Assembly (NCBI RefSeq): GCF_900091435.1
Contig: NZ_FMCS01000017.1
Coordinates: 1-64,000 of the forward strand
Direction: 5' to 3'
Origin: Micromonospora chaiyaphumensis
GTDB lineage: Bacteria; Actinomycetota; Actinomycetes; Mycobacteriales; Micromonosporaceae
DNA: 64,000 nucleotides
A program made the translations under genes and the position numbers. Each line of letters starts with the position of its first letter. Position 1 is the first letter of the stretch. This document shows positions 10,325 to 64,000 of this stretch, piece after piece. The notes beneath the pieces are model-generated. The model searched no databases, was not told where the DNA came from, and saw only the letters and a program-made list of their open reading frames with translations.

Positions 10325-10424
10325 GCTGCGTTAGCCTCTCGCGGCTCGGGGTCTTCTGCCACCCGGGAGCGGATCGGCCGCCCCCGGCACGTCCAGCCTC
10401 GTCCCTCGGCCGGCGCGTCGATCA

Positions 10425-10438
10425 GGGCCGTAGGTCCC
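10425..10438. promoter_or_regulatory. DosR-like box upstream of phosphoketolase-USP unit
   Basis: GGGCCGTAGGTCCC differs from the box at 3323 at one position and from the reverse complement of that at 3380 at one position, all in the central degenerate base. It lies about 100 bp upstream of the phosphoketolase start. Good evidence that these promoters share a regulator. Confidence 0.6.
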
Positions 10439-10452
10439 GGACCGGGCGGGCG

Positions 10453-11286: not shown

Positions 11287-11381
11287 CCCGGCTCACCTCC
11301 CGACCGCGCTCTCCTCACCCACGGTAGTCGTGCGGGTGTCCGCCGGGACCCGGTCGGCGGAACTGGCGTCGACGGGAGGGA

Positions 11382-12182: not shown

Positions 12183-12240
12183 CAGCGGACCGTAACACCG
12201 GTCGGGGTCGCGGCTCGGCAGGTCGCGGTGACGTGTCGGA

Positions 12241-12286
12241 TTGTCAACCGGGGTTGACAAAGGGCCTTCCGTCAACCAAAGTTGAC
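12241..12286. promoter_or_regulatory. Twin palindromic operators between PP2C and HTH genes
   Basis: TTGTCAACC-GG-GGTTGACAA (12241-12260) is a perfect palindrome with a 2-bp centre; GTCAAC-CAAA-GTTGAC (12271-12286) is a second, centre to centre about 28 bp away. The second ends 3 bp before the ATG at 12290, so bound protein would block transcription start. Both contain TTGACA-like hexamers that can serve as -35 elements. The adjacent small HTH protein is the natural candidate ligand. Confidence 0.65.
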
Positions 12287-12289
12287 AAC

Positions 12290-12526
12290 ATGAGTCAGGC
12301 GACGGAACTCGCGGCGGCGGCCGGCAGCACCGACCCGAAGGTCGGGCTGCGGGCGGTGCTCGCCCTGCGCCGGCTGCTCGAACGGCTGGAGGTGGTCCAG
12401 GTGGACAACGCCCGACGGCAGGGCTGGTCCTGGCAGGAGATCGCCGACGCCCTCGAGGTCAGCCGGCAGGCGGTCCACAAGAAGCACGCCGGGCGACCGG
12501 CGGTCCGCGGAAGCTGGGAGGCGTGA
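12290..12526 (+). CDS. Small helix-turn-helix DNA-binding protein
   Basis: A 78-residue protein. The C-terminal half carries a helix-turn-helix, GWSWQEIADALEVSRQAVHK, resembling sigma-70 region 4 or phage-type HTHs; the N-terminal half is Ala/Leu-rich helix (LRAVLALRRLLERLEVVQ). The start is placed at the ATG directly after the palindrome at 12271-12286, leaving essentially no leader. The stop overlaps the start of the Clp_N gene by one base (TGATG), so the two are coupled. Family members of this size sit upstream of Clp_N genes in other actinobacteria. Inferred role: autorepressor or regulator of the operon. Confidence 0.8.
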   Translation: MSQATELAAAAGSTDPKVGLRAVLALRRLLERLEVVQVDNARRQGWSWQEIADALEVSRQAVHKKHAGRPAVRGSWEA

Positions 12527-13101
12527 TGTTCGAACGGTTCACCGACCGGGCCCGCGCGGTGGTGCACCACGCGGTCGACGAGGCGCGCACCGAGGGCCGG
12601 CGCCCGGTCGGCACGGAACACCTGCTGCTCGGCGTGCTCGCCGACGGCGACAACCTGGCCGTCCGGGTGCTCTCGGCCGGCGGCATCCGGGCCGAGGACC
12701 TGCGCGCCGCCGTGGCCCGGCACACCGCGCACGGTGTCGACGGCCTCGGCGCGGCGGACGCGGCGGCGCTGCGCGAGATCGGCATCGACCTCGCCGCGAT
12801 CGTCGCGCGGATCGAGGAGTCCTTCGGCCCGGACGCGCTGCGCGAAGCGGCCCCGGCGCCCCGCCGGTGGTGGGGTCGCCGCCCCGACAGCGGCCGGTTC
12901 TCCCCCCGCGCCAAGAAGGTGCTGGAGCTGTCCCTGCGGGAGGCGCTGCGGCTGCGCCACCGCCACATCGGCACCGAGCACATCCTGCTCGGGCTGCTGC
13001 GGGAGGGCAACGGGCTGGCCGCGCTCGTGCTCACCGAGGCCGGTGCGGACCTCGACGACCTGCGCCGCCGGGTCGAGGCGGCGCTGCGCACGGCGGCCTG
13101 A
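12526..13101 (+). CDS. Clp_N-domain protein lacking an ATPase domain
   Basis: A 191-residue protein built of two ClpA/ClpC N-terminal repeats: residues about 1-70 (MFERFTDRARAVVHHAVDEA, GTEHLLLGVL) and about 115-190 (SPRAKKVLELSLREALRLRH, GTEHILLGLLREG), joined by a linker RRWWGRRPDSGR. There is no AAA+ module, so it is not an unfoldase; Clp_N domains bind adaptors and substrates and such stand-alone proteins may act as adaptors, decoys or stress sensors. GGGAGG precedes the ATG at 12526; an in-frame GTG three bases earlier is also possible. Coupled to the upstream HTH gene. Confidence 0.85.
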   Translation: MFERFTDRARAVVHHAVDEARTEGRRPVGTEHLLLGVLADGDNLAVRVLSAGGIRAEDLRAAVARHTAHGVDGLGAADAAALREIGIDLAAIVARIEESFGPDALREAAPAPRRWWGRRPDSGRFSPRAKKVLELSLREALRLRHRHIGTEHILLGLLREGNGLAALVLTEAGADLDDLRRRVEAALRTAA

Positions 13102-13216
13102 GCGGCCCGGCCGGCCGCCGCCACGGGTCCGGCAGCGGATCAAACCTGTTTGCGGTCCTCGCAACGTCGGCCGGTGTCGGGTCGCTGAGCCGCCCCGCTT
13201 GCTGCACACTTGCGCC

Positions 13217-14224
13217 GTGGACGGTGGAGACGAGAAGAGCCCGTTGACCGCGGACAACCCCGCACCACGCTCGGCCGTGGTGGTCAACCCGACCAAGGTG
13301 ACCGATCTCGACAGGTTCCGCCGGACGGTGGACGGCGCCCTCACGGCCGCCGGCTGGCCCGCGCCGGCCTGGTACGAGACCACGGCGGAGGACCCGGGCC
13401 GGGGCCAGACCGAGGCGGCCGTCGAGGCCGGCGCCGAGGTGGTCTTCGCCTGCGGCGGCGACGGCACCGTGATGGCCTGCGTGACCGCGCTCGCCGGCAC
13501 CGACGTGGCGCTCGCCGTGCTGCCCCAGGGCACCGGCAACCTGCTCGCCGCCAACCTCGGCCTCTCCGGCGACCTCGCCGCCGGGCTGGAGGTCGCCGTC
13601 GAGCGCGGCGTACGCCGGCTCGACGTGGGCGCGGTCGGCGACCGGTGCTTCGCCGTGATGGCCGGGATGGGCTTCGACGCGCAGATGCTCGACTCCACCT
13701 CCGAGACGACCAAGAAGCGGTTCGGCTGGCCGGCCTACGTGGTGGGGGCGGCCAAGCACCTGCGGGACCGGCCCATGCGGGTCTCGATCCGCATCGACGG
13801 CGGGCCGTCGCTGCGCCGGCGCGCCCGTTCGGTCCTGGTCGGCAACGTCGGCCGGCTCCAGGGCGGGGTACGCCTGCTCACCGACGCCGAGCCGGACGAC
13901 GGCTGGCTCGACGTGGCGGTGCTGACCCCGCGGACGCTCGGTCACTGGCTCGCCCTCGGCTGGGCGGTGCTGCGGCGGCGGGGCAGCGTGCCCCGGATGG
14001 AGGTGTTCCGGGCCCGGAAGGTCGAGATCACCAGCAACCGGGCCCAGCCCCGGCAGCTCGACGGCGACCTCATCGAGCCGGGCCGGTCCCTGAAGATCGA
14101 GATCCGGCCCGAGTCGCTCTGGCTCTGCGTGCCGCGGCCGGCGCGCCACCCCGACCTGTCCGTCGACGCCGACGCGGCCGCCGAGCGCGGCGAGCGGCTG
14201 GTCGAGGAGGCCCGGCATGAGTAG
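13217..14224 (+). CDS. Diacylglycerol kinase-family lipid kinase
   Basis: A 335-residue protein with the DAGK catalytic domain: VVVNPTKV (21-28), the ATP-binding GGDGT at 80-84, and PQGTGN at 103-108, followed by the C-terminal beta-sandwich (VLVGNVGRLQGGVRLL, DGWLDVAVL, QLDGDLIEPG). Family members phosphorylate diacylglycerol or related lipids, including sphingosine and undecaprenol; the exact substrate cannot be read. The start is GTG at 13217; no ribosome site is obvious and it may be leaderless. The stop overlaps the next start by 8 nt (ATGAGTAG), so it forms a unit with the BrkB-like gene. Confidence 0.85.
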   Translation: MDGGDEKSPLTADNPAPRSAVVVNPTKVTDLDRFRRTVDGALTAAGWPAPAWYETTAEDPGRGQTEAAVEAGAEVVFACGGDGTVMACVTALAGTDVALAVLPQGTGNLLAANLGLSGDLAAGLEVAVERGVRRLDVGAVGDRCFAVMAGMGFDAQMLDSTSETTKKRFGWPAYVVGAAKHLRDRPMRVSIRIDGGPSLRRRARSVLVGNVGRLQGGVRLLTDAEPDDGWLDVAVLTPRTLGHWLALGWAVLRRRGSVPRMEVFRARKVEITSNRAQPRQLDGDLIEPGRSLKIEIRPESLWLCVPRPARHPDLSVDADAAAERGERLVEEARHE

Positions 14225-15218
14225 CACCAAACTGGTCCCCGAGACCCGGCTGATGGCGAAGGAGGAGCTCTCCGCCGACGACGCCTGGCACACCCTGCGC
14301 CGCCACGGCGGCTGGCACCTGCTCCGGGACGCCTTCATCCGGTTCCGCTACGGCGACGGCTTCAGCCACTCGCGGGCCCTCGCGCTGCAGCTCTGCCTCG
14401 CCGTGGTGCCGTTCCTCATCGCGCTCACCGGCCTGATCACCGACCTCGGCGTCGACGAGGGCGGCAAGGTGGTCGCCGACACCGTGCTGGCGATCACCCC
14501 GGGCCAGAGCGAGTCGATGGTGCAGGAGCTGCTGGCGGACACCGAGCGCACCGAGGACGCCGGTGAGCTGGCGCTGACCCTCGGCCTGCTGACCGGCCTC
14601 GTGGCGCTCACCACCACGATGGCGCAGATCGAGCGGGGCGCGAACCGGATCTACGGCGTCGAGCGGGACCGCCCGGCCCTCTTCAAATACCTGCGGGCCG
14701 CGGTCCTCGCGCTGGTCGCCGGCGTGCCCGCGCTGGCCGGGTTCCTGATCCTCGTCGGCGGCCGGGCCATGGGCGACTCGGTCCGGCGGCACTACGAGTG
14801 GGGCGACCTCGCCCACGGCGCCTGGGACGTGGTCCGCTGGCCGCTCAGCCTCGGCCTGACCGTGCTCGCCGTGGCGGTGCTGTTCCGGCACGCGCCCCGG
14901 CGTAACCAGCCCGGACTGTCCTGGCTCTTCTTCGGCGCCGGCATCGCCACCGCGCTCTGGTGGCTGGCCAGCCTGCTGCTCGCCGCCTACGTGAAGTACA
15001 GCGGCGGATTCGGGCAGACGTACGGCGCACTGACCGGCATGATGGCCCTGCTGATCTGGGCCAACCTGACCGGGATGGCGCTCTTCGGCGGGCTGGCGTT
15101 CGCCGCCCAGTTGGAGGCCATGCGGATCGGGGTGGAGGAGCCCGCCCAGCCCGACCTCTGGGAGCCGGAGGCCGAGCGCGAGGAACTCCTCGACACCGGC
15201 GACATGACCGCCCTCTGA
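14217..15218 (+). CDS. YihY/BrkB-family integral membrane protein
   Basis: A 333-residue protein with about six hydrophobic segments and the family blocks FSHSRALALQLCLAVVPF, EIERGANRIYGVERDRPALF-like QIERGANRIYG, and a C-terminal LLIWANLTGMALFGGLAFAA. An amphipathic, charged N-terminal stretch (LRRHGGWHLLRDAFIRFRYG) precedes the first helix. The family is widespread in the inner membrane and not well understood; older annotation as ribonuclease BN is not supported. It overlaps the lipid kinase gene by 8 nt and is followed by the PAP2 gene, so a role around membrane lipids is a reasonable but unproven inference. Confidence 0.85.
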   Translation: MSSTKLVPETRLMAKEELSADDAWHTLRRHGGWHLLRDAFIRFRYGDGFSHSRALALQLCLAVVPFLIALTGLITDLGVDEGGKVVADTVLAITPGQSESMVQELLADTERTEDAGELALTLGLLTGLVALTTTMAQIERGANRIYGVERDRPALFKYLRAAVLALVAGVPALAGFLILVGGRAMGDSVRRHYEWGDLAHGAWDVVRWPLSLGLTVLAVAVLFRHAPRRNQPGLSWLFFGAGIATALWWLASLLLAAYVKYSGGFGQTYGALTGMMALLIWANLTGMALFGGLAFAAQLEAMRIGVEEPAQPDLWEPEAEREELLDTGDMTAL

Positions 15219-15296
15219 CGTCGCACCGGCCTCCGGCGTGTACGCGGAGTCCGAATCGGGTACCGCACGCCTCGCAGCAGACGAGGGAGGTGCGGG

Positions 15297-16787
15297 GTGA
15301 CCGCGGTCAAGGAGGCGACGCGCCGCCCGCTCGGCCATTTCGCCGAGCGGAGCCTGGCGGGCCTGCTCGTCGTGGCCGGCGCGGGAGTCGGTTTCGGCGT
15401 GCTGCTCATGCTCGTCCGGTTCCACTGGGGCCCGCTCTACCGGGCCGACCACGAGGCGGCCGAATGGTTCAACCACCTCGTGGCGCCGCACCACCCGCTG
15501 GTCACCGTGCTCCAGGCGGTCACCGACCTGGGCGGGCGGCCGGTGCTCATCTGGCTGGTCACCATCGCGGTGGTCGGCCTGCTGATCCGCCGCCAGTCCC
15601 GGCTGGCCGTCTACCTGATCATCACCGGGGCGGGCGGGCTGATCCTCGACCCGTCGCTCAAGGCGCTGGTGGGCCGGCTGCGCCCGGTCGTGGACGTGCC
15701 GGTGGCCCACGCACCCGGCAACAGCTTCCCGAGCGGCCACGCGCTCGGCTCGTTCGTCGCGTACGGGGCGCTGCTGCTGGTGTTCCTGCCGGCCGTGGCG
15801 CCGCGCTGGCGCAAGCCGGCCATCGCCGTCGCCGGCCTGCTGGTCGTCCTCATCGGGCTGACCCGGATCGCGCTGGGCGTGCACTTCGTCTCGGACGTGC
15901 TGGGCGGCTGGCTGCTCGGCGCGGCCTGGCTGGGCGTGACGGCGTACGCCTTCCGGCTGTGGCGGCGCGAGCGCGGCCGGCCGGTGCCGCCGCTCACCGA
16001 GGGCCTGGAGCCCGAGGCGGGGGAGGAGATCACGCCCGCCCCGGCCGAGGAGCACGTGCTGGAGCACCCCCGCTCGTCCGTGGCCGAGCTGCTGGTGGGC
16101 TGGGTGCTCGTGTTCGGCGCCCTCTACGCCTTCGGCATGTACGTCAGCTACCACGCCAAGGGCACGATCTTCGACACCCTGGACACGGAGGTGCCGCAGT
16201 GGTTCGCCGACCGGCGTACCGACGCGCTCACCGACCTGAGCTGGTGGTGGAGCAAATTCGGTGACACCCACGCCATCCTGCTGGTCTCGCTGGTGTTCTG
16301 CCCGATCGTGCTGGCGATCTGGAAGCGGTGGCGGCCGGTGCTCTTCGTGGTGCTGGCGATGTTCGGGGAGCTGAGCCTGTTCCTGGCGACGGCCCGGGTG
16401 GTGGAGCGGCCCCGCCCGCCGGTGGAGAACCTGGACGGGCAGATGCCCACCTCGTCCTTCCCGTCCGGGCACATCGCGGCGACCATCTGCCTGTGGACCG
16501 CCATGGCGATCATCGTGCTGCCGCGCACCGACCGCTGGTGGCGCTGGCTCTTCGTGGCCATGGCCGTGATCATGCCGGTCGGGGTGGCCACCTCCCGGAT
16601 GTACCGGGGCATGCACCACCCGACGGACTTCATGGGCGCGATCCTGCTCGGCGCGCTCTGGCTCACGCTGCTCTGGTGGGTGGTCCGGCCGAACGCGGAC
16701 GTGCGCCAGGGCAACCGGCCGGCCATCGAGTCGGAGCAGGTGCACGAGCTCGACGACGAGCTGGCGAAGGCCGGCCGGGAGGACTGA
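15297..16787 (+). CDS. Double PAP2 (phosphatidic acid phosphatase) membrane protein
   Basis: A 496-residue protein made of two PAP2 superfamily domains in tandem, each with several membrane helices. First domain: KALVGRLRP (122-130), FPSGH (144-148), TRIALGVHFVSD (189-200). Second domain: ARVVERPRPP (366-375), FPSGH (388-392), SRMYRGMHHPTD (433-444). The second lacks the lysine of the KxxxxxxRP motif at normal spacing, while both catalytic His residues remain. A Glu/Pro-rich linker (about 230-258) joins the two. GTG start with GGGAGG at good spacing. Such enzymes dephosphorylate lipid phosphates such as phosphatidate or undecaprenyl diphosphate; next to a lipid kinase, opposing activities are plausible. 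Confidence 0.87.
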   Translation: MTAVKEATRRPLGHFAERSLAGLLVVAGAGVGFGVLLMLVRFHWGPLYRADHEAAEWFNHLVAPHHPLVTVLQAVTDLGGRPVLIWLVTIAVVGLLIRRQSRLAVYLIITGAGGLILDPSLKALVGRLRPVVDVPVAHAPGNSFPSGHALGSFVAYGALLLVFLPAVAPRWRKPAIAVAGLLVVLIGLTRIALGVHFVSDVLGGWLLGAAWLGVTAYAFRLWRRERGRPVPPLTEGLEPEAGEEITPAPAEEHVLEHPRSSVAELLVGWVLVFGALYAFGMYVSYHAKGTIFDTLDTEVPQWFADRRTDALTDLSWWWSKFGDTHAILLVSLVFCPIVLAIWKRWRPVLFVVLAMFGELSLFLATARVVERPRPPVENLDGQMPTSSFPSGHIAATICLWTAMAIIVLPRTDRWWRWLFVAMAVIMPVGVATSRMYRGMHHPTDFMGAILLGALWLTLLWWVVRPNADVRQGNRPAIESEQVHELDDELAKAGRED

Positions 16788-16797
16788 TCGGGCGCCG

Positions 16798-17601
16798 ATG
16801 CTGCGGGCGATGACCTGGAACATCCGGACCGGCGGGCGGGACCGCGACGGCACCGACCGCCGGGACCGGATCGCCGCCGTGGTCGCCGACCAGCGCCCCG
16901 ACCTGCTGGCCCTCCAGGAGCTGCGCGGCCTGGACTCCGACGGCGGGCTCGCCGAGCTGGCGGAGCGGGTGGGCATGGCGCCGCACCTGGCCCGGTCCTG
17001 TTTCGGGCAGCCCGTGGCGGTGCTGGTCCGCCCGCCGCTGCGGGTGCTGCGGGCGAGCCGGGTGCGCCGCCCGTTCCACCACGCCGCCGCGCGCGTCGAG
17101 GTGGCCACCGCGGCCGGCCCGCTGACCGTGTTCAGCACCCACCTGAACCCGTACTCGGGCGGGCGGCGGCGGATGGAGGCCGACTGGCTGGCGGCGGCCG
17201 TGCGGCGGACCGGGGGCGACCTCGCCCTGCTCGCCGGTGACCTGAACACCCTGGAGCCGGCTGTCGACCACACCGCCCGGCTGGCCGGCCTCGCCCCCCT
17301 CTACCGGCGGCGGCACGTGCGCCGCGACGGCCGTACCGTCGACACCCGCGCGGTGGCCCGGCTGCTCGACGCGGGCCTGGTCGACCTCTGGCCGCGCGCC
17401 GGCGGCGGCGAGCCGGCCGGGCTGACCGTGCCGACCCGGCACGGCGGGGCGGAGTTCGCCGGGATGCGGCTGGACTACCTGCTCGCCACCCCGGCGCTGG
17501 CCGCGACCGCCCGCGCGGTCCGGGTGGTCCGCGGCGGCGACGCGGACAGCGCCTCCGACCACTACCCGGTCGTCGCCGACCTGGCGCTGGCGCCCGGCTG
17601 A
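16798..17601 (+). CDS. Endonuclease/exonuclease/phosphatase-family protein
   Basis: A 267-residue protein of the EEP fold (DNase I, APE1, sphingomyelinase and inositol phosphatase relatives). Family motifs in order: MTWNIRTGG (5-13), LLALQELRG (36-44) with metal-binding Glu, FSTHLNPYSGG, LLAGDLNT, LDYLLATP and the C-terminal ASDHYPVVADL with catalytic Asp-His. No signal peptide or membrane anchor is evident. It starts 10 bp after the PAP2 stop and so probably belongs to the same transcript as the lipid kinase, BrkB-like and PAP2 genes. Substrate may be nucleic acid or a phospholipid headgroup; context weakly favours the latter. Confidence 0.82.
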   Translation: MLRAMTWNIRTGGRDRDGTDRRDRIAAVVADQRPDLLALQELRGLDSDGGLAELAERVGMAPHLARSCFGQPVAVLVRPPLRVLRASRVRRPFHHAAARVEVATAAGPLTVFSTHLNPYSGGRRRMEADWLAAAVRRTGGDLALLAGDLNTLEPAVDHTARLAGLAPLYRRRHVRRDGRTVDTRAVARLLDAGLVDLWPRAGGGEPAGLTVPTRHGGAEFAGMRLDYLLATPALAATARAVRVVRGGDADSASDHYPVVADLALAPG

Positions 17602-17627
17602 CCCCGCACTGTCCGACGGCGCCCGGT

Positions 17628-17747
17628 TCAGACGAGCAGGTTCAGCAGCACGGTCAGGACGACCGACGCGACGATCGAGAAGAGGATCATCAGCAGGCAG
17701 CCGAGGCCGCCGCCGACGGGCCGGATCTCCGTGTTTCCGATGCGCAT
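17628..17747 (-). CDS. Small single-span membrane protein (39 aa)
   Basis: A 39-residue ORF: MRIGNTEIRPVGGGLGCLLM followed by a hydrophobic run ILFSIVASVVLTVLLNLLV to the stop. One membrane helix is predicted from about residue 16 to the end, with a short polar N-terminus. An AAGGTGAG ribosome site precedes the ATG, overlapping the stop of the upstream hydrolase gene, 4 bp away, so it is likely translated as the last gene of the LLM-hydrolase unit. No family assigned. Good initiation signals and clean codon use support reality despite the size. Confidence 0.65.
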   Translation of the reverse strand: MRIGNTEIRPVGGGLGCLLMILFSIVASVVLTVLLNLLV

Positions 17748-17751
17748 GGAC

Positions 17752-18597
17752 TCACCTTCGCAGGACGGGCGCCAGCAGGTCGCGGATCGCGTCGGCGACC
17801 TGGCCGGGCGCGGTGGTGGCCACGTTGTGCGCGGCGCCCGGCACGGCGGCCGTCCGGGCGTCCGGCACCAGGCGGGCCGCCTCCGCGCGCCAGCCGGCCG
17901 GGACGACGGTGTCGCGGGTGCCGGTCAGCACCAGAGTCGGCGCGGTGACCCGCACCAGGTCCGCCTCGATCGTGTTGCGCACCGAGTGGGACAGGGTGGC
18001 GAACACCCGCCACGGGCGGGCGTCGAGGACGTCGCGCAGCAGGATCGGCGCCTGCCACTTCGCCTCCCACAGCGTGTCCAGCAGCCACCGGCCGATCTGG
18101 CCGCGCCGGGAACGGGCGGCCGGGTCGCTGGTCGGGCCGGCCAGCACCAGCGCCCGGACCAGGTCCGGGCGGCGGGCGGCGAGCGCCGCGACCACCTCCG
18201 CGCCGAACGAGTGGCCGAGCAGGCAGACCGGCCCCAACCGGTACGCGGCCAGCCACTCCGCCAGGAACGCGGCGTGCCGGGCCACGTCGTACGCCGTGCC
18301 CGGCCGCTCGGTGAGCCCGAAACCGGGCAGGTCCGGCACGTACACCGGGTGGGTGGCCGACAGGGCCACCGCCAGCGGGGTGAGGTAGCGGTGCGAGACG
18401 GCGAGGCCGTGCACCAGGACCACGGGCGGCCCGTCGCCGCCCGGGTCCGCCGCCCGGCGGGTGTGCGTACGCAGGCCGTCGATCAGCCGGAACTCGCTGG
18501 TGAGGCCGGCGGCCGGGCGGGGTGCGGCCAGGGCCAGCCGCAGCTCCGCCGGCCCGAAGCGCCCCGGTGGCGAGGGCCGGACGGCGGGACCGGTCAC
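17752..18597 (-). CDS. Alpha/beta hydrolase
   Basis: A 281-residue alpha/beta-hydrolase-fold protein. PVVLVHGLAVSH supplies the oxyanion HG motif, LLGHSFGAEVV the nucleophile elbow (G-x-S-x-G), TGTRDTVVP the acid region and PGAAHNVATTAP the catalytic His. The first 40 residues are Pro/Ala-rich and variable. Start GTG at 18597 overlaps the stop of the upstream LLM gene (GTGA). The substrate is not predictable: family includes esterases, C-C hydrolases and haloperoxidases. Context with an F420-type oxidoreductase hints at a small oxidation/hydrolysis unit but nothing more specific. Confidence 0.83.
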   Translation of the reverse strand: MTGPAVRPSPPGRFGPAELRLALAAPRPAAGLTSEFRLIDGLRTHTRRAADPGGDGPPVVLVHGLAVSHRYLTPLAVALSATHPVYVPDLPGFGLTERPGTAYDVARHAAFLAEWLAAYRLGPVCLLGHSFGAEVVAALAARRPDLVRALVLAGPTSDPAARSRRGQIGRWLLDTLWEAKWQAPILLRDVLDARPWRVFATLSHSVRNTIEADLVRVTAPTLVLTGTRDTVVPAGWRAEAARLVPDARTAAVPGAAHNVATTAPGQVADAIRDLLAPVLRR

Positions 18598-19556
18598 AGC
18601 TCGCGGAGCCGGGGCAGCAGCTCCTCCTGCGCCCAGTCCAGGAACATCGGCTGGCTGTCCGCGCCGACCTGGACCAGCGCCACATGGGTGAACCCGGCGT
18701 CGACGAACTTCTTGAACGCCTCGACGTGCCGGTCCACGTCCGGCCCGCAGGGGATCCCCTCGGCCACGTCCTCCTCGCGGACGAACTGGGTGGCCGCGGC
18801 GAAGGCGTCCGGGCCGGGCAGGTCGGCGTTGACCTTCCAGCCCAGGCCGAACCAGCGGAACTGGTCGTGCACGATCTTGCGGCACTCGGCCTCGTCCGGG
18901 CCGTAGCAGATGGCCACCTGCCCGTAGCGGGGCCGGCCCGCGCCGCCGGCCTCCTCGTACATCTCGACCAGGTGCGGCAGCGGGTCGGTGGCGATCATGG
19001 CGTCGGCGTAGTCGGCGGCGAGGGTGGCGGACTGCCGGCCGGAGGCGGCCACGGCCATCGGCACCGGGCGTTCCGGCCGGTCCCAGACGTAGGCGTCGGG
19101 CACGTCGAAGTGGTTGCCGGAGAACGTCAGCGTCTCGCCGTTGAGCAGGGGCCGGATGATCTGGAGCGCCTCCTCGAACATCTCGTGCCGCTGCTGCACG
19201 TGCGGCCACCCGCCCACCACGTGCTCGTTGAGGTTCTCGCCGGCGCCCAGGCCGAGGGTGAACCGCCCGTCCGACAGCACCCCGATCGTGCTGGCCTTCT
19301 GCGCCACCACGGCCGGGTGGTAGCGCCGGATCGGGCAGGTCACGAAGGACATCAGCTCGGCCCGGCTGGTGGCGTGCGCGACCGCACCGAGCACCGACCA
19401 CGCGTACGGGGAGTGGCCCTGCGAGTCCAACCAGGGGTAGTAGTGGTCGGACATCACGAGGTGGTCGAAGCCGGCGGCCTCGGCGCGGACGGCGTGGTCG
19501 ACCAGCTGCTTGGGGCCGGCCTGTTCGCACATGAGGGTGTAGCCGACGTTGACCAT
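18594..19556 (-). CDS. F420-dependent LLM-class oxidoreductase
   Basis: A 320-residue luciferase-like monooxygenase-fold protein of the F420-dependent glucose-6-phosphate dehydrogenase-like branch. Blocks typical of that branch: AGFDHLVMSDHYYPW, SFVTCPIRRYHPAVVAQKAS, RFTLGLGAGENLNEHVVGG and PMAVAASGRQSATLAA. The cofactor would be F420, consistent with an actinobacterium; the substrate is unknown and close relatives are often annotated only by family. ATG at 19556 with AAGGAG. It heads a three-gene unit with the hydrolase and small membrane protein and is divergent from the mannanase gene. Confidence 0.85.
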   Translation of the reverse strand: MVNVGYTLMCEQAGPKQLVDHAVRAEAAGFDHLVMSDHYYPWLDSQGHSPYAWSVLGAVAHATSRAELMSFVTCPIRRYHPAVVAQKASTIGVLSDGRFTLGLGAGENLNEHVVGGWPHVQQRHEMFEEALQIIRPLLNGETLTFSGNHFDVPDAYVWDRPERPVPMAVAASGRQSATLAADYADAMIATDPLPHLVEMYEEAGGAGRPRYGQVAICYGPDEAECRKIVHDQFRWFGLGWKVNADLPGPDAFAAATQFVREEDVAEGIPCGPDVDRHVEAFKKFVDAGFTHVALVQVGADSQPMFLDWAQEELLPRLREL

Positions 19557-56391: not shown

Positions 56392-56823
56392 TCAGCGGCC
56401 GGCGAGCAGCCGGTTCACCGCGGTGTCGACGTCCAGGTGCTCGGCCTCGCGGCCGCGCGGGACGACGACGTAGGTCCGGCGCAGGAAGCGCACCAGCACG
56501 CTGCGCGGGACCTCGAAGAGGGCGTTGCCGTCCGGCGACGACAGCGCGAGCGCGACGAAGTCGCCGCGCGGGGTGGCCCACGGCCAGACCCGGACATCGC
56601 CGATGCCGGCCGGCTCGTCGAGGCCGGTGACCAGCAGTTCGCGGGCGAACGACCAGCTCACCGCCTCGCCGCCGGCGGATTCGGCGTGGAACAGGACATG
56701 GACCGCATACGGGTCAGCAGGGTCGTAACGCAGACTGGCACGCACCGGCAAGGCGGTGGCGTCAGGCGCGACGAGCCTTAGCGACGTCTCGACCTCTACG
56801 GTCGTCGGTCGAATGACACTCAT
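56392..56823 (-). CDS. SsgA-family sporulation/cell division regulator (SsgB-like)
   Basis: A 143-residue SsgA-like protein: ALPVRASLRYDPADPYAVHV (the LRYDxxDPYAV block), SWSFARELLVTGLDEPAGIG, GDVRVWPWATPRG, ALALSSPDGNALFEVP and a C-terminal VDTAVNRLLAGR. SALPs occur only in morphologically complex actinobacteria; SsgB positions FtsZ for sporulation septa. Sequence is closer to SsgB than to SsgA, but orthology is not certain. ATG 56823 with GGGGGAGA upstream. Its 273-bp upstream spacer is shared with the PGPGW protein gene. Confidence 0.88.
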   Translation of the reverse strand: MSVIRPTTVEVETSLRLVAPDATALPVRASLRYDPADPYAVHVLFHAESAGGEAVSWSFARELLVTGLDEPAGIGDVRVWPWATPRGDFVALALSSPDGNALFEVPRSVLVRFLRRTYVVVPRGREAEHLDVDTAVNRLLAGR

Positions 56824-57988: not shown

Positions 57989-58780
57989 TCACCGGCGTGA
58001 CTGGCGGCCGTCGGTCCGGTGGGCCGCCCACTCGCCGGTCCACATCGCGAGGTCGTGTACCCAGCCCTGGGTGCTCTGCCGGGACTTCGCCGACCACTTC
58101 GATGCGTTCCTGGACGCGAAGTGGTCCAAGACCTCGCGGTCAGTCGCCGTCCATGCGGGAAACTGTGCTAGCCATTCTTCTGCCTGTTCGGCGCTGTGGC
58201 CGCTGCCGATCAGCCACTGGACGAGCAACGCGAGTTCGACCCATGGTGCGGCCTTGGTTGCCCACGCCCAATCGACGATCCGTAGGCCGTGTGTGGTCAC
58301 GATCAGGTTGGCCGGGTTGAGGTCGGAGTGGATGAGTGTCTCGCCGTCCATCGCCGGGTGCGCGAAGCCGAGCCGGGCTGTCGGGGTGAACCATGGCTCG
58401 CCTGGCGCGGGAGTCTCCTGAAGTGCCTTCAGCGTGACTGCGAGCAGATCGAGATCCGCGTTGCCGGGTGACAGGTCGGGGTGGGGACCGGCAAGATGCT
58501 CGGTCCCCACCACCAGCCAGCCATGGGACTCGAAGTGCCACAGAACTGCGGGTGGGTGCCGGTCGATGGCCCGGGTTGCCGCCAGCTCGTAGCGCAGTGA
58601 CCGAACGTTCAACTCTCCCAAGGCCGCCTTGACGAAGACCGGTCCGGCGGGCCCGGTGACCGTCGAGGCGATCTGCGCGTGGTTGCCACTGGGAGCCGGG
58701 GTTACGTCGAAGGCTCCGCCGATCCGTTCGGCGATCTCTGTCGTGACACTGTGAGGCAGAGCGGTCCAGTCGCTACGCAT
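57989..58780 (-). CDS. APH-family phosphotransferase (lanthipeptide locus)
   Basis: A 263-residue aminoglycoside-phosphotransferase-fold protein. Catalytic loop HSDLNPANLIV (151-161, Asp153), metal-binding IVDWAWATKAAPWVELALLV (Asp170), ATP-site Lys51 in VFVKAALGE. The chain is shorter than typical antibiotic kinases and has no diagnostic substrate residues. ATG at 58780 is preceded by AGAGAAG. It is the last gene in the leftward lanthipeptide-type operon, 14 bp after the small Cys-Cys-ending ORF. Could phosphorylate a peptide, a small molecule or serve as self-protection; unresolved. Confidence 0.85.
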   Translation of the reverse strand: MRSDWTALPHSVTTEIAERIGGAFDVTPAPSGNHAQIASTVTGPAGPVFVKAALGELNVRSLRYELAATRAIDRHPPAVLWHFESHGWLVVGTEHLAGPHPDLSPGNADLDLLAVTLKALQETPAPGEPWFTPTARLGFAHPAMDGETLIHSDLNPANLIVTTHGLRIVDWAWATKAAPWVELALLVQWLIGSGHSAEQAEEWLAQFPAWTATDREVLDHFASRNASKWSAKSRQSTQGWVHDLAMWTGEWAAHRTDGRQSRR

Positions 58781-58794
58781 CGTTCTCTTCTCTG

Positions 58795-59055
58795 CTACTT
58801 GCCGGGCTGAGGCGGGTTCGGCGGGCAGCAGGACTCGGCCTCACCACCCCAGAATTCCATGTCGACCCGGTAGCCGGTGTTGTGCAGCGCCGTGAGTGTG
58901 TAGGTGACGGCGGTGCCGTCCTGCATGGCCTCGGTCAGGATCGGCCGGTGGTGTACGTAGCGGCCCGCGATCTCCTTGCAGGCGGCGGTGTAGGGCTTAC
59001 TGATCTGCCTGAGTCGGTGCCATTGCGGCGGCTCTCGCGTCCTGGATTGCCGCAT
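58795..59055 (-). CDS. Small protein ending AESCCPPNPPQPGK
   Basis: An 86-residue ORF, ATG at 59055, overlapping the 3' end of the upstream gene by 59 nt. N-terminal part is basic (RTREPPQWHRLRQISKPYTA), then AACKEIAGRYVHHRPILTEA, a central TAVTYTLTALHNTGYRVDME and the tail FWGGEAESCCPPNPPQPGK. The tail has adjacent Cys in a Pro-rich context. A later in-frame ATG (MQDGTAVTYT) is an alternative start that avoids the overlap. No family recognised. Placement between the helical-repeat gene and the kinase gene in a tightly packed operon supports it being translated. Confidence 0.5.
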   Translation of the reverse strand: MRQSRTREPPQWHRLRQISKPYTAACKEIAGRYVHHRPILTEAMQDGTAVTYTLTALHNTGYRVDMEFWGGEAESCCPPNPPQPGK

Positions 59056-60127
59056 TGCTGACCGTCAGGGCCTGCAGCAGTCGCTCGTGAGCGGCGTTTG
59101 GCATGCCCCGGTCTGCCATACCAGATGTCTGCAGGATTTCGGCCAGCTTGGCTCTCGACGAGGCGTCGACGACGGTGAGGACGTCGCGGTGGTGCAGTAG
59201 GTCACGGGCAATGTAGGCGTCATCGGAGGTGAGGGCCTGATTGATCAGATCTGCGGCGAGGCACCGTACGTCAGGATGGTCCACGCCGACAGCGTCAAGG
59301 ACGGTGAGCCCGAGGCGGTTGTGAAAGACCGCACGACTGGGTGCGGACGTTAGCTGCCGATGACTGCGAAGCAGCTCGCCGAGCGCCATCCCTTCCGATT
59401 CGCCGGCCCCCTTGTTGCATAAGTAGGCCAGGCATAAGGTGACCGCTTCCTCCCATGGCTCCCCAGCGACGGTCTCGGCGATGAGCGAGCGCGCGCGTTC
59501 GATCTGGCCGGTGGTGGCGTGGGCGATGACCGCGACTTGGCGTCCGTCGAGCATCCGGTGCCCGATGCCATTGTTCTGCTGGAGGTGGTAGTGGGCTTCT
59601 CTCCAACGGCCGGCGGTGGTGAGTGCTCGAGCACCGTCGGCGAGGAGCACGGCCCACAGCCATTGCCGCACTTGACGATGGTCGTCCGCCGCTCGGGTTA
59701 GTCGGCTCGCCGGCAGGGGTTGGCCGTCGATCAGGGTGTCGGTGCGGGATGAGACAGCCTGGTAAAGATCGGTGAGGAGCCCGAGTGCGGCGTCGCCATT
59801 GCCGTCTCTGGTGTGCAGGCGGGCCAGGTTGACCAGTGGCTCCAGGGCATGCCGCGCGGCCTGCGCGGCCAAGGGGAGGGTTCGCAGGTACGCGGCCGCA
59901 TGCTGGTGGCACCACAGTCGGGCCAGCTCGGGCTGGCCACAGTCCGAGGCTATTAGCGCGGCCTGGTTGTAGACGGCAGACGCCGCGGCCAGATCGCTCG
60001 CCCGAGCCGCACGGTCGGCGAGGGCGCAGAGGTCGTTGACGCGGATGCTCAGCGCCTTGGCGGCGGGCCGCGGTCGAGCCACGAGGGGAAAGCGCCGCAG
60101 GGCCTGGCTGGTCGGGTCCATCCTCAT
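58997..60127 (-). CDS. Helical-repeat (TPR-like) protein of the lanthipeptide locus
   Basis: A 376-residue all-helical protein with tetratricopeptide-like repeats: LADRAARASDLAAASAVYNQ, AALIASDCGQPELARLWCHQ, LVNLARLHTRDGNGDAALGL, DGARALTTAGRWREAHYHLQ, ATTGQIERARSLIAETVAGE and RAKLAEILQTSGMADRG. No HTH is visible at the N-terminus, so it is not the usual XRE-TPR regulator although the repeats resemble those. ATG 60127 overlaps the methyltransferase stop (ATGA). Role unknown; a scaffold or regulator of the biosynthetic complex is possible. Codon use is looser than in the 1-57 kb part. Confidence 0.75.
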   Translation of the reverse strand: MRMDPTSQALRRFPLVARPRPAAKALSIRVNDLCALADRAARASDLAAASAVYNQAALIASDCGQPELARLWCHQHAAAYLRTLPLAAQAARHALEPLVNLARLHTRDGNGDAALGLLTDLYQAVSSRTDTLIDGQPLPASRLTRAADDHRQVRQWLWAVLLADGARALTTAGRWREAHYHLQQNNGIGHRMLDGRQVAVIAHATTGQIERARSLIAETVAGEPWEEAVTLCLAYLCNKGAGESEGMALGELLRSHRQLTSAPSRAVFHNRLGLTVLDAVGVDHPDVRCLAADLINQALTSDDAYIARDLLHHRDVLTVVDASSRAKLAEILQTSGMADRGMPNAAHERLLQALTVSNAAIQDARAAAMAPTQADQ

Positions 60128-62205
60128 TGCCAGGTGACGGTGATCGGGTGGTGCGGCCGGGGGAGGACGAAGTGTCCAGCCGAGGGATTCGCCTGGGCGG
60201 GCGCGTCGGGGATTTCGAAACGCACGGTCCGGGTGCGGTACTCGGCGTCCCAGACGCGGGTCTCGTCGGCGACCTGCTGGGCGAGGTCCTTGCCGGAGGG
60301 GCCGTGGCCGATGACGCCGACTTCGTACAGCTTGCCGCCGTCGCCGGTGGGTCGTGCTGGCCGGATGCTGAGGTATGCGAGGTCGGCGCCGCGGGTGGTC
60401 GCCATCGCGCCCCACGGAAACATGGGGGAGACGGCGTCGCGCTCGATGGCCTGGGGTGTGACGTTCATCCGCATGATGGCGTTGTCGAGACGGCAGGCGA
60501 GCCACAGGTCGAGCCACTCGTAGGGCACCATCGGTGGGAAGAGCACGCCGGTCCACATCTCGTGCCGCTCGCTCTCGAGTACACCGGCGAGTGCGGCCGC
60601 GTCGACGTCCTGGTCCTTGTGCACCTGCAGCGTCACGTCCTGCTCGCCGGTGAGGGTGACAAGGCGTCGGGCGTCGTCGCCGATGCCGCGCAGCGGCATG
60701 AAAACGGCCAGTTCACTGCCGACGTCGCGCCATCCACCCTCGTACCGTTCGAAGATGATCGAGCGGGACGCGGCGCCGCGCAGCCGCAGCGGCACGACTA
60801 GCCGGCCGTCCGGGGCCAGTTGCTCCAGCCACGCGGTGGGTGTCTCCCAAGCGCCGACGGTGGCGATGATCCGGTCGTAGGGTGCGTCGTCGGGGTGTCC
60901 GAGCGCGCCGTCGCCGCGGACGACCTGGACGTTGGCGACCCCGGCGGCGGCGAGGTGTTTGCGAGCCCCGTCGACGAGGTCATCGTCGAGGTCGATGGTG
61001 CTGACGCGTCCGGTTTCGCCGGCGATGGCGGCCAGGAGAGCGGCGTTGTAGCCGGTTCCGGCGCCGGCTTCCATGATGCGGTGGCCTGGTTGGGCGTCGA
61101 GCTGCTCGAGCATCATGGCCACGATCTGGGGCTGCGAGGCCGCGCTGATCGAGGTGCCGCAGCCGTCGGTCTTGGTGTAGACCGGTCTGTCGGCGTACGC
61201 CTGCTCCAGCGGCACGCCGGGCAGGAACAGATGCCGGGGAGTCGTCCGCATCGCGGCGTCGACCGTCGGTGTCCGGATGAAGTTTTCTGCCCGCAGCCGG
61301 TCGGTGAGCTCGGTACGCAGGTCGGCGGGTTCACGAAGCGCGGCCATCTGGTCGACGCTAGCGGCCGGCGGCGTGGGTTCTGTGGTGGACACGGTGCTCC
61401 TCCCTATGGGGTCGAAGACGTTTCTCACCGCCAGCGCGGCGAGGGCGGACTGGTCGCGTACGGACAGGCCCAGGCGGTTGGCGTGGAAGATGACGTGGTG
61501 GGCGATGACCGCCCGGGGGCCCCGTCGGAGGCGGCCGTGCCGTGCCAGGTCGGCGACGGCTTGACCGGCGGTTTCGAACGCGTCGAGCCATGCCCCGTAG
61601 CCCGCGAGCGGGCTGTCCGAGGCGGGATGGCTCGAACTCCGGATGTCCGCGGTCATGAGCCGGTTCATCGCTCGGTCGAGGTCCGCGGTGGCGCCGCTTT
61701 CGGCGGGCAGAGTAGGGGCGGGGCGTAGGTCTGCGACCTTGGCCCAGACGTCGCCCTGCTCGTACCAGTCCAGGCCGGCGCTACGCATCAGCACGCTGGA
61801 CAGCAGGATGGCGAGTTCGCGTCTGCCGAGCGCGGCCGGCTCGGCTAAGCCGGGTCCAAGGAGCAGCTGTCGGCTGTCCTGGTGGAAGAGGTCGTGGGCG
61901 ATGTGCATGCCGGCCGAGCCGCCGAAGGCCAGCGTCTCCGGCTCGTAGATGCTCGGGGTCCAGTTGACGATGCGGTCGTCGGCGGCGAGCGTCTCCAGCA
62001 GGTCCTCGACGACATGAGAGGTGGGGTCGTCGGCAATGTAGCGCCATCGCCACGACGGGTACTTGCGGACGTACCACCAGCCGTGCAGGACGCCGTCGTC
62101 CTGAGCGGCGGCCAGTGCTGGGGCGAGCACCGTGGTGGCGATGTGCTCAGCTGCGGTGGGGTTGGGGAACTCGACGGTGTACTGCCGCCAGTCACATGTC
62201 GACAT
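60124..62205 (-). CDS. SpaB_C-PIMT fusion methyltransferase (FxLD lanthipeptide type)
   Basis: A 693-residue fusion. Residues 1-265 form a thiopeptide-type/SpaB_C domain (WRQYTVEFPNPTAAEHIATT, LHGWWYVRKYPSWRWRYIAD, LLSSVLMRSAGLDWYEQGDV), the module that in LanB enzymes eliminates glutamate. Residues about 290-500 are a PIMT-like O-methyltransferase: HLFLPGVPLEQAYADRPVYT, SAASQPQIVAMMLEQLD, SAM motif RIMEAGAGTGYNAALLA (376-392). The C-terminal 190 residues are the extension seen in methyltransferases of FxLD systems. Relatives methylate Asp in lanthipeptides, giving aspartimide or isoaspartate. Start ATG at 62205; stop overlaps the next start. Confidence 0.88.
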   Translation of the reverse strand: MSTCDWRQYTVEFPNPTAAEHIATTVLAPALAAAQDDGVLHGWWYVRKYPSWRWRYIADDPTSHVVEDLLETLAADDRIVNWTPSIYEPETLAFGGSAGMHIAHDLFHQDSRQLLLGPGLAEPAALGRRELAILLSSVLMRSAGLDWYEQGDVWAKVADLRPAPTLPAESGATADLDRAMNRLMTADIRSSSHPASDSPLAGYGAWLDAFETAGQAVADLARHGRLRRGPRAVIAHHVIFHANRLGLSVRDQSALAALAVRNVFDPIGRSTVSTTEPTPPAASVDQMAALREPADLRTELTDRLRAENFIRTPTVDAAMRTTPRHLFLPGVPLEQAYADRPVYTKTDGCGTSISAASQPQIVAMMLEQLDAQPGHRIMEAGAGTGYNAALLAAIAGETGRVSTIDLDDDLVDGARKHLAAAGVANVQVVRGDGALGHPDDAPYDRIIATVGAWETPTAWLEQLAPDGRLVVPLRLRGAASRSIIFERYEGGWRDVGSELAVFMPLRGIGDDARRLVTLTGEQDVTLQVHKDQDVDAAALAGVLESERHEMWTGVLFPPMVPYEWLDLWLACRLDNAIMRMNVTPQAIERDAVSPMFPWGAMATTRGADLAYLSIRPARPTGDGGKLYEVGVIGHGPSGKDLAQQVADETRVWDAEYRTRTVRFEIPDAPAQANPSAGHFVLPRPHHPITVTWQ

Positions 62206-62221
62206 CAGTTCGGACTCCTCC

Positions 62222-63514
62222 TCATGTCACGGGATAGGTGGGTCGGGCGGTGATCAGACAGGAGTCCCAGGAGCTGACCGGCGTCGATGCGGTGCTGCAG
62301 GTTATGGCGGCCAGGGCCACTCCGGCGGCGCCTTCGAGCATCCCGGGGCCCGGTGCGGCGGCGACCAGGGCCACAGCCGTCCGTCGAGGGCCGGCACCAG
62401 TGGGGTCGATCATGCTGATCAGGTCGGGAACTCGGGCGTCAAGGCGGGCGGCTATGCCAGGGGGAGCGTCGGCGGCGACGCGGTGGGCGATGTGGGCGAG
62501 GCCGGCGTACCCGTGGCACAGCGACGGATCCGTCGTTGACGCCAACTGGCCCGGGTCGGTCAAGGCGCGGGCGAGCGCGTCCCCGGCAGTTGCGCGACGG
62601 ACCGGGTCACCGGTCGCGAGAGCAGCGAGCTGCTGCGCGTGCGCCAGGCCGGCGGTGCCGTAGCACCATGAGGGCCGTTGGGCTGCTGGCGTCGATGGGC
62701 GGTCTGCGCGTAGCTGCCCTCTGGTGATCCAGTACGGCCAGATTGGGCCGGTGCCGGTATCGCTGCGCCACCGGTCGAGCCAGGAGCAGACGGTTGCGAT
62801 GGCCTGGAGTTGCCCCGGTATGACGACACCCCGCAGAGCGGCGAGCGCGAGGAGGGCCAGTGGGCCGGCGATGCCGTGTGCCAGTCCGTTGTTGCTGTGG
62901 CCGTCGGGGAAGCGGGCGTCGGTGCGTCCGTTGGGGCCGCTGCCGGTCCACCAGCCTGGTAACACCTCGCCGTCGCGGTGCAGGGGAGCGGTCAGGCGGA
63001 CCAGATATTCGAGTACGGCGTGAAGTGCGTCGCCCGCGGATGGTCGGCGGAGCAGGTACGCCCCGATCCCGGCGAGCCCTCGGATGGCGTCGAACTCGGC
63101 GAGGGCCGGTAGCTCGCTGGCGTCGATGCGGGCGTGGGCGGCGGCCACGCGGCGCCGGGCATCGGCGGAGATCGCCCTGTCGAGGCCGTCGAGTGCGTGG
63201 GCGTAGACGCCGGGCTGGTGGGTGGCCGCGCAGGCGAGGACGTGTGCGAGTGCAGGTGCGCCGTGGAAGGGATGGCTGTCGGCACCCGCCGTAATCGGGC
63301 CGCCGGTAACGGCGGTCAGCCAATGATGGGCGCGCTGCCACGGTCTCAGCCCCGCCGCTGCCAGCTCGACGTGCAGCAGGGCGATCCCGGGCACGCCGAG
63401 GGCGAGCGACTGCCGCCACCAGGGCTGCTCGATCGGCAGGCTCGAATCGTCGGGATGGGCGAGCAGGTCGGCGACCGCGACGGCGAGTTCGTGGCTCTCG
63501 TATGCCGGGTTCAT
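62222..63514 (-). CDS. lanC: Lanthionine synthetase C-family protein (LanC)
   Basis: A 430-residue LanC cyclase. Zinc ligands Cys284 (PSWCYGTAGL), Cys333 and His334 (LCHGYAGLA) are present, and the catalytic His213 lies in NNGLAHGIAGPLALL. Other family blocks: LALGVPGIALLHVELAAAGL, EFDAIRGLAGIGAYLL, and GMLEGAAGVALAA near the C-terminus. It adds Cys thiols to dehydroalanine/dehydrobutyrine to form (methyl)lanthionine rings. ATG at 63514 overlaps the LanB stop by ATGA; 16 bp to the methyltransferase start. Class I system, together with the LanB fragment. Confidence 0.93.
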   Translation of the reverse strand: MNPAYESHELAVAVADLLAHPDDSSLPIEQPWWRQSLALGVPGIALLHVELAAAGLRPWQRAHHWLTAVTGGPITAGADSHPFHGAPALAHVLACAATHQPGVYAHALDGLDRAISADARRRVAAAHARIDASELPALAEFDAIRGLAGIGAYLLRRPSAGDALHAVLEYLVRLTAPLHRDGEVLPGWWTGSGPNGRTDARFPDGHSNNGLAHGIAGPLALLALAALRGVVIPGQLQAIATVCSWLDRWRSDTGTGPIWPYWITRGQLRADRPSTPAAQRPSWCYGTAGLAHAQQLAALATGDPVRRATAGDALARALTDPGQLASTTDPSLCHGYAGLAHIAHRVAADAPPGIAARLDARVPDLISMIDPTGAGPRRTAVALVAAAPGPGMLEGAAGVALAAITCSTASTPVSSWDSCLITARPTYPVT

Positions 63515-64000
63515 GGCCGGCTCCGGGCGAAGTAGGCCAAGGCGGCGGCTCGCGCGAGGTAGCGGCATTGGTCCTCGTCGTCGAAGTCGATACCGACAGC
63601 GCGGATGTAGTGGGCGTGCATGAGTGAGCCGAGGACGTCGTCGCTGTTGATGCCCTCGGCGTACGGTCCGGGTAGGTGGGTCCGGTAACCGGCGAGGGCG
63701 ACGTCGCGGCTCTTCCAGGCGTCGACGATGGCGGTGCCGCCGGCTACGGCGCGCAGCGCGGCCCAATCGTCGCCGGGGTGGGCGAGGCGGACGGCTTCGC
63801 GGAACAGCGGCCGCTCCACCGGTTGCGGCGCCGCCCCGGGTATGCGGTCGACCATCCAGCGCATGCCGGCCTCGACGCTGCCGGTGTACGCGATGGCGAT
63901 GGCGGCGATCTGCGCGGCGACGAGCGCCTGCCGGCTCGGGCGGACGGGTTGGCGCAGCTGTGTGAGGACGGCGTGGGAGTCGGCGATGAAGACCGCCTCG
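63511..64000 (-). CDS. lanB: Lantibiotic dehydratase (LanB), C-terminal part only
   Basis: The last 163 codons of a class I dehydratase; the gene continues beyond base 64000. Visible sequence starts EAVFIADSHAVLTQLRQPVR and includes VEAGMRWMVDRIP, EAVRLAHPGDDWAALRAVAG and the typical end HAHYIRAVGIDFDDEDQCRY with LARAAALAYFARSRP, all characteristic of the SpaB_C/elimination domain end of LanB proteins. Full LanB uses glutamyl-tRNA to dehydrate Ser/Thr of the precursor. Overlaps LanC by ATGA. The precursor gene is expected further right, outside the window. Confidence 0.85.
   Translation of the reverse strand, partial: EAVFIADSHAVLTQLRQPVRPSRQALVAAQIAAIAIAYTGSVEAGMRWMVDRIPGAAPQPVERPLFREAVRLAHPGDDWAALRAVAGGTAIVDAWKSRDVALAGYRTHLPGPYAEGINSDDVLGSLMHAHYIRAVGIDFDDEDQCRYLARAAALAYFARSRP

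Follow-up and report, generated by a model that had tools for sequence, protein, structure and literature searches.

We describe a lanthipeptide locus at the right-hand end of a 64,000-nucleotide stretch of Micromonospora chaiyaphumensis DNA, hereafter called the window, which comprises positions 1 to 64,000 of contig NZ_FMCS01000017.1 (designated C18) in the source genome (G000). The first-pass annotation of this DNA had interpreted it as an FxLD-like class I lanthipeptide locus that includes a PIMT-like methyltransferase and in which the C terminus of LanB, a LanC with a zinc site and a SpaB_C-PIMT fusion overlap tightly, and had placed the precursor to the right of position 64,000. We find these genes on the minus strand and in that order, with the LanB stop codon lying over the LanC start codon. 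C18 (100,919 bases) extends past the window, and reading it beyond 64,000, which had been set beforehand as a test, revealed both a precursor open reading frame (ORF), with an FxLD leader and an Asp in a TxDGC core, and a complete LanB of 1035 residues, which rules out a truncated upstream LanB. The gene order on the minus strand is LanA-LanB-LanC-(SpaB_C-PIMT)-HEL, where HEL is our name for a helical-repeat gene. Taken as a whole, the locus is best explained, in our view with good confidence, as a five-gene operon for a class I lanthipeptide of the FxLD family. Its features are as follows, in window coordinates unless marked C18.

C18 66713-66871, minus strand: LanA precursor, 52 residues (MAISTTEQSTTADNEEFDLDVRLLEVADVAGLVNLTDDGCGSTCTACTTNVA); TIGR04363 ('FxLD family lanthipeptide'), 52.2 bits, cut-off 30
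C18 63511-66618, minus strand: LanB dehydratase, whole, 1035 residues from the first start; PF04738, 705.8 bits, and PF14028, 115.2 bits, both over cut-off
63511-64000, minus strand: C-terminal (elimination) part of LanB lying in the window; TIGR03891, 77.7 bits
62222-63514, minus strand: LanC cyclase, 430 residues; PF05147, 131.8 bits
60124-62205, minus strand: LanS_A-type fusion of an accessory SpaB_C domain (about residues 1-262; TIGR03891, 157.5 bits) to a PIMT with a C-terminal extension (about residues 294-693; TIGR04364, 458.8 bits)
58997-60121, minus strand: HEL, a predicted TPR superhelix protein of 374 residues and the fifth operon gene; matched in 79 of 80 loci

Precursor, LanB and LanC

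The LanA ORF sits 94 bases upstream of LanB and combines an FDLD leader with a TDDGC core motif, the 17-residue core being TDDGCGSTCTACTTNVA. The Asp is placed as in the TxDGC motif that published work describes for lanthipeptides associated with a PIMT (PMC10787088, PMC13001092; here and below, publications are cited for portions of their text). Conservation was assessed in the best 80 of 253 relatives of the SpaB_C-PIMT fusion, obtained by scanning named genomes, and the window proteins were compared with these loci by tblastn. The set spans Micromonospora, Streptomyces, Kitasatospora, Frankia, Pseudofrankia, Actinomadura, Microbispora and other genera, and its nearest named fusion relative is that of Micromonospora globbae (88% identity). 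LanA was matched in 74 of these loci, LanB in 76, LanC in 79, the fusion in 80 and HEL in 79, contig ends that cut several loci accounting for part of the LanA, LanB and LanC misses. More broadly, TIGR04364 scored over its cut-off in 51 of 298 genomes sampled from the same order.

The core is strongly similar across genera, TDDGCGSTCTACTTNVA recurring in 4 ORFs and TDDNCGSTCGACTTNVA in 17. When the window and the 74 loci are taken together, T[DN]D[GN]C is found in 74 of the 75 LanA ORFs, the residue following the Asp being Gly in 47 and Asn in 27, and the sole exception (L090) is a wrongly chosen frame. FxL[DN] is present in 73 of the 75, and the stretch between FxLD and core carries a net charge of -2 to -5 in all 72 precursors counted.

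As for the two core enzymes, the complete LanB has both a glutamylation and an elimination domain (PF04738 and PF14028). In the alignment, its residues R818, R820, E860, R863 and H1001 are each kept in 39 of 39 sequences; they align with R784/R786, E823/R826 and H961 of NisB, to which we assume the roles generally ascribed to them. The Cys and Cys-His motifs of LanC, which we take from NisC to be the zinc ligands, are identical in all 42 aligned sequences.

The SpaB_C-PIMT fusion and HEL

The methyltransferase half of the fusion is readily recognized. TIGR04364 ('methyltransferase, FxLD system') scores 458.8 bits against a cut-off of 320 and is matched over positions 2-394 of its 394, while TIGR03891 is also over cut-off. 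In structural comparisons made with an AlphaFold2 model of the whole fusion (mean predicted local distance difference test score, pLDDT, 84.2; predicted template modelling score, pTM, 0.58), the protein matches PIMTs from about residue 290, the Thermotoga structure 1dl5 aligning over 296-693 (Z 27.6, root-mean-square deviation 7.7). This is the structure that Lee et al. named for the C-terminal extension of the PIMT clade associated with ribosomally synthesized and post-translationally modified peptides (RiPPs). Because the profile is spanned almost end to end and 1dl5 aligns over 296-693, we read this part as a PIMT with the RiPP-clade extension.

The N-terminal part of the model resembles LanB elimination domains, with Z scores of 19.8 for MadB, 18.9 for NisB and 18.7 for MibB (range 18.6-19.8). 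A single-sequence search of SpaB_C alone against the PDB gave no match, and a profile search gave MibB (E 0.0005) and weaker matches to TsrE, NisB and MadB. NisB R784/R786, R826 and H961, which we take to be required for glutamate elimination, were located in the PDB alignments. In the fused SpaB_C, the residues aligned with R786 and E823 are kept (R55 and E90) in 42 of 42 sequences, and at the R784 position 23 sequences have Arg, 17 have Pro and 2 have Lys. The position of R826 is Ala, Val or Thr and that of H961, placed by a low-identity profile alignment, is Ile, Leu or Val, in all 42. Since the residues aligned with R826 and H961 are absent here while the LanB of the same operon keeps them, the fused SpaB_C is probably not a second glutamate lyase.

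The first-pass annotation had regarded three further genes, HEL among them, as nonstandard and possibly defining a new subtype. HEL, however, is standard for this branch: it lies behind the fusion in 79 of the 80 loci, the exception (L103) stopping 25 bases past the fusion, and it belongs to the operon gene set. With starts chosen by script, it begins 0-6 bases past the fusion in 37 of the 79 loci and 71-102 bases past it in 40; the remaining two overlap by 10 bases or match partly. An alignment of 59 HEL sequences has 35 invariant columns, and of the 58 positions conserved in at least 95% of them 10 are Arg, none is Lys and 5 are Asp or Glu. The AlphaFold2 model (pLDDT 93.9, pTM 0.90) is a superhelix consisting of nearly nothing but helix. 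TPR proteins fill its structural matches in the VIA alignment of Foldseek candidates, with a best Z of 14.2, followed by NprR (13.8), LGN (13.8) and Rap proteins (11.4-13.0), values that around 13 are ordinary for helical repeats and may reflect a shared arrangement only. Foldseek alone returned no match for the model at E ≤0.001. Seven Pfam TPR models each match 1-6 of the 59 members (best E 4e-5), none of them matching the window protein at E 0.01, and searches of PDB sequences and of PHROGs each gave a single chance-level match. We found no description of HEL in the open-access literature searched, subscription papers lying outside that scope.

Which gene HEL accompanies was determined in genomes sampled by taxonomy. 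HEL was detected in 23 of the 298 order genomes, as no more than short fragments in two of these, and in 5 of 396 genomes drawn from the phylum; the source genome is part of both counts. We typed 70 loci, which hold 75 of the 80 TIGR04364 matches over cut-off from the order genomes, using hidden Markov models (HMMs) built from the 80 named loci; as these derive from the fused branch, divergent LanB, LanC or HEL may be missed. The set leaves out G163:C15, G045:C15, G197:C6:56722, G091:C1:1851063 and a decayed copy on contig C12 of G000, and 11 of its loci were added once HEL was known to be present in them, all within the original TIGR04364 list. LanB, LanC and PIMT occur together in 39 of the 70. 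Among these 39, HEL is present in 6 of 6 clusters with a fused SpaB_C-PIMT, in 10 of 23 with a separate SpaB_C and in 0 of 10 with no accessory SpaB_C. The difference between clusters with (16 of 29) and without (0 of 10) an accessory domain gives a Fisher p of 0.002, related genomes being treated as independent, and the difference between fused and separate types gives the same p on the same footing. One cluster counted as separate (L126) has SpaB_C and PIMT adjacent in different frames with a shortened PIMT match; if it were fused, the class would stand at 6 of 7.

Wherever HEL is present in a typed LanB/LanC cluster, it immediately follows the gene for SpaB_C or SpaB_C-PIMT, and in the separate type, where the order is PIMT-LanA-LanB-LanC-SpaB_C-HEL, it trails SpaB_C even though PIMT is at the opposite end. 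In the remaining 31 typed loci these HMMs did not find LanB together with LanC; one of the 31 (L209) carries a degenerate SpaB_C-PIMT remnant without HEL. Five phylum loci, excluded from the counts as they were selected for the presence of HEL, comprise three fused clusters (L180, L182, L183), one separate cluster (L181) and one with LanB-LanC-SpaB_C-HEL and no full PIMT (L159). Two variations were seen alongside: in L182 (G320, 7852-18635) a single LanB, LanC, SpaB_C and HEL share one cluster with three LanA-like ORFs in succession and three PIMT genes, and L171 and L172 have, downstream of HEL, both a further PIMT and part of a LanC-like sequence, corresponding to roughly the final quarter of the profile.

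Proposed maturation route and competing readings

We propose that LanB, which by family would be tRNA-Glu-dependent, dehydrates Ser and Thr residues of the LanA core, and that LanC would then add the three Cys to give (methyl)lanthionines, the first ring probably joining Thr1 to Cys5 and enclosing Asp-Asp-Gly. After cyclization, the PIMT domain would methylate the second Asp of TDDGC, leading to a succinimide and mostly to isoaspartate, by analogy with OlvS_A, for which methylation of Asp after cyclization, succinimide formation and hydrolysis mainly to isoaspartate have been reviewed (PMC10787088, PMC13001092). The fused SpaB_C probably holds or presents the cyclized peptide to the methyltransferase, or performs other chemistry. 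HEL is most likely an adaptor that binds the peptide or the enzymes, and its conserved arginine positions could grip the acidic leader. Put together, it is possible, and we suggest it tentatively, that SpaB_C-PIMT and HEL form a distinct maturation module, in which a non-lyase LanB-type domain and a dedicated TPR protein would position the folded lanthipeptide for Asp methylation, or for a new lanthipeptide modification, on a core that is conserved across several actinobacterial genera.

Several points weigh against this proposal. The H961 correspondence comes from a low-identity alignment, and the Fisher tests count relatives as independent. HEL went unmatched in 13 of the 23 clusters whose SpaB_C is separate, and no TPR-like gene was recognized among the downstream genes of four of them (L130, L132, L134, L135). 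In L068 and L106 only part of HEL is matched (likewise in L055, where the contig ends), and a few relatives may therefore carry a broken gene. HEL is also found away from any LanB, LanC, PIMT or SpaB_C match (L160-L162), as a damaged gene alone (L173) and with only SpaB_C (L158); it may therefore have a role beyond this pathway. Finally, HEL is not basic overall (pI 6.95 for the window protein; median pI 6.4 and median net charge -4), so that the idea of acidic-leader binding draws on the conserved positions only. Inspection of the surroundings of HEL in L160-L162 revealed no common theme; in two related genomes among them (L161, L162), the genes next to its homologue were labeled by eye as a CobW-type GTPase and a metal ABC transporter.

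Rather than a biosynthetic adaptor, HEL could be a self-protection or peptide-sensing TPR protein that binds the mature peptide, a reading that we consider somewhat doubtful. It is in keeping with the peptide-binding Rap and NprR proteins, which are RRNPPA-type sensors, being among the best structural matches (Z 11.4-13.8), with HEL standing alone at L160-L162, and with the operon neighborhood. Neighboring genes up to 6 kb from the operon were called with a simple gene caller in the 80 loci; among the 22 commonest clusters, labeled by eye, no protease was recognized, and no exporter beyond one ABC-transporter-like cluster in 8 loci. However, NprR and Rap are tied with unrelated TPR proteins at scores ordinary for such folds, and HEL is placed directly behind SpaB_C or SpaB_C-PIMT in every typed LanB/LanC cluster that has it and is missing from all 10 clusters that lack the accessory domain.

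For the fused SpaB_C, two readings compete with a role in holding the peptide for methylation. It is rather unlikely that the domain runs a different reaction on dehydroamino acids, like the [4+2] aza-cyclases of thiopeptide pathways. Its fold is common to PbtD, TbtD and TsrL (Z 15.6-16.8), it has invariant residues of its own, among them H104, D110, R141, D146, E149, D152, W154 and H236, and Walker et al. raised the possibility of a non-elimination modification for such domains (PMC7268733), but the LanB elimination domains outscore the aza-cyclases. It is quite unlikely that the domain assists LanB as a further glutamate lyase, whether redundant or rate-enhancing. The nearest folds and the retained R55 and E90 would suit a lyase, whereas the substitutions at the R826 and H961 positions, an Arg in only 23 of 42 at that of R784, and the presence in the operon of a full LanB with all these residues argue against it.

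Returning to HEL as an adaptor, the idea that it is itself an enzyme is very unlikely. There is a precedent in BhaC1, a TPR-domain enzyme dependent on flavin mononucleotide (FMN) (PMC9850906), and a GxGxRMLDGRQ stretch and four Trp are kept in at least 95% of HEL members; yet HEL has 374 residues, while residues of BhaC1 are named up to Lys654, its model is almost all helix, and none of the 59 members matches a Pfam enzyme family.

Flanking chromosome and related systems

To the left of the operon lie the other two genes that the first-pass annotation had counted as possible subtype genes.

58998-59043, no strand: junction between the operon (right) and native chromosome (left), where blastn similarity ends
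58795-59055, minus strand: small CC ORF, 86 codons, a 5'-truncated remnant outside the operon; in 0 of 80 operon loci
57989-58780, minus strand: APH-like kinase (PF01636), outside the operon, native chromosome

By sequence comparison, both belong to the flanking native chromosome rather than to the operon, and they define no subtype. By tblastn the small CC ORF is absent from all 80 operon loci and the kinase is matched in one, as a partial match of 60 residues, while the pair is found at Micromonospora loci that lack the operon. The kinase is matched in 44 of 61 Micromonospora genomes, 13 of which, counting the source, show ≥70% identity along almost the entire protein; the small CC ORF is matched in 21 of 61. 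At loci without the operon (L186, L187 and L196, and L197 for the kinase only, which has no small gene), the kinase lies beside the same neighbors as in the window. These include the 143-residue gene at 56392-56823, a stable marker of the native chromosome beside the operon, which we take to be SsgA-like.

In blastn comparisons with eight operon-free Micromonospora loci, similarity ends exactly at 59007 in five (L185-L188, L196), at 59022 in L189, at 58998 in L190 and at 58818 in L197, and from the other side the similarity to the M. globbae operon (L039) ends at 59043. Five longer homologues of the small ORF have 139-203 residues (starts from a simple caller), of which the window ORF keeps only the C-terminal part. 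Because similarity ends at the junction and the homologues are longer, we conclude that the operon abuts an ordinary gene of the chromosome and truncates it. On the far side the arrangement has changed: C18 70020-72946 is found near the small gene in L188 and L196 and directly upstream of LanA in L054, in an orientation opposite relative to G000.

Among 14 fetched loci carrying either the pair or the kinase, 11 have no PIMT match above 45 bits, and the small CC ORF, considered as a pamtide precursor, is on that account an unlikely one. That the small CC protein and the kinase are genuine pathway genes acquired locally is scarcely credible, since the same strand and close spacing, a degenerate copy with PIMT-HEL remnants beside a kinase fragment on C12, and a pair that adjoins a standalone PIMT in L189 (G091), with a PIMT-like match within the same fetched stretch in L190 and L192, are set against their near absence from operon loci, their presence with the same neighbors at operon-free ones, the truncation at the junction and the lack of PIMT at most kinase loci.

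That degenerate copy, at G000:C12:351081-353698 (L006 8082-10699), is a diverged, decayed second copy with 88% DNA identity to C18 59016-61467, in which PIMT (444 residues aligned, 85% identity) is without SpaB_C, stop codons interrupt HEL, and a fragment from the beginning of the kinase remains. NUDIX- and nucleotidyltransferase-like genes (by eye) stand beside HEL-less FxLD clusters (L130, L134), and a matching stretch (L006 11708-12640) with 89-90% identity near the decayed copy in G000 suggests a common integration neighborhood. Elsewhere on C12, 380731-382999 is 94% identical to C18 70014-72282; it holds GPP34- and permease-like genes (by eye), found near lanthipeptide or kinase loci in relatives. 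Within the 6-kb surroundings of the 80 operons, a TPR-containing regulator was labeled by eye in 33 loci (31 of the 33 genes upstream, on the opposite strand) and an ATPase-like gene in 31 (29 of the 31 upstream, on the same strand).

The operon belongs to the known family of FxLD lanthipeptides with an Asp-methyltransferase, and the membership of HEL and the probable non-lyase nature of SpaB_C go beyond the first-pass annotation. Among the auxiliary enzymes of class I lanthipeptide clusters, PIMT homologues are reported to occur most often (PMC13001092), and the fusion of an Asp-methyltransferase to an extra LanB elimination-like domain has already been published (PMC7268733, PMC13001092), the mature product of the characterized case being reported as unknown (PMC7268733). 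The comparison yields a complete five-gene set, one gene beyond LanA, LanB, LanC and the methyltransferase, gives residue-level grounds for asking what the extra SpaB_C domain does, and removes the kinase and the small CC protein from the list of pathway candidates.

Four sets of known systems are closest. OlvA/OlvBCS_A of Streptomyces olivaceus, whose products are called lanthimiditides, is alike in its full LanB, LanC, extended PIMT homologue, FxLD leader and TxDGC Asp (PMC13001092, PMC10787088); it would differ from the present operon, in which the methyltransferase is fused to an accessory SpaB_C and followed by HEL. TbtD, PbtD and TsrL share a fold with the fused SpaB_C, LanB elimination domains being structurally nearer. 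BhaC1 and AmmC1, the TPR-domain flavoenzymes of PEARL pathways, likewise pair a TPR protein with LanB-like enzymes, and an acidic peptide has been proposed to bind in the TPR cleft; as described, they differ from HEL in being larger and FMN-bound (PMC9850906). The standalone LanB elimination-domain proteins fused to PCMT that Walker et al. described in 2020 in class I biosynthetic gene clusters show the same domain pairing beside a full-length LanB, and the portion of that account covered here mentions neither a TPR gene nor missing lyase residues (PMC7268733).

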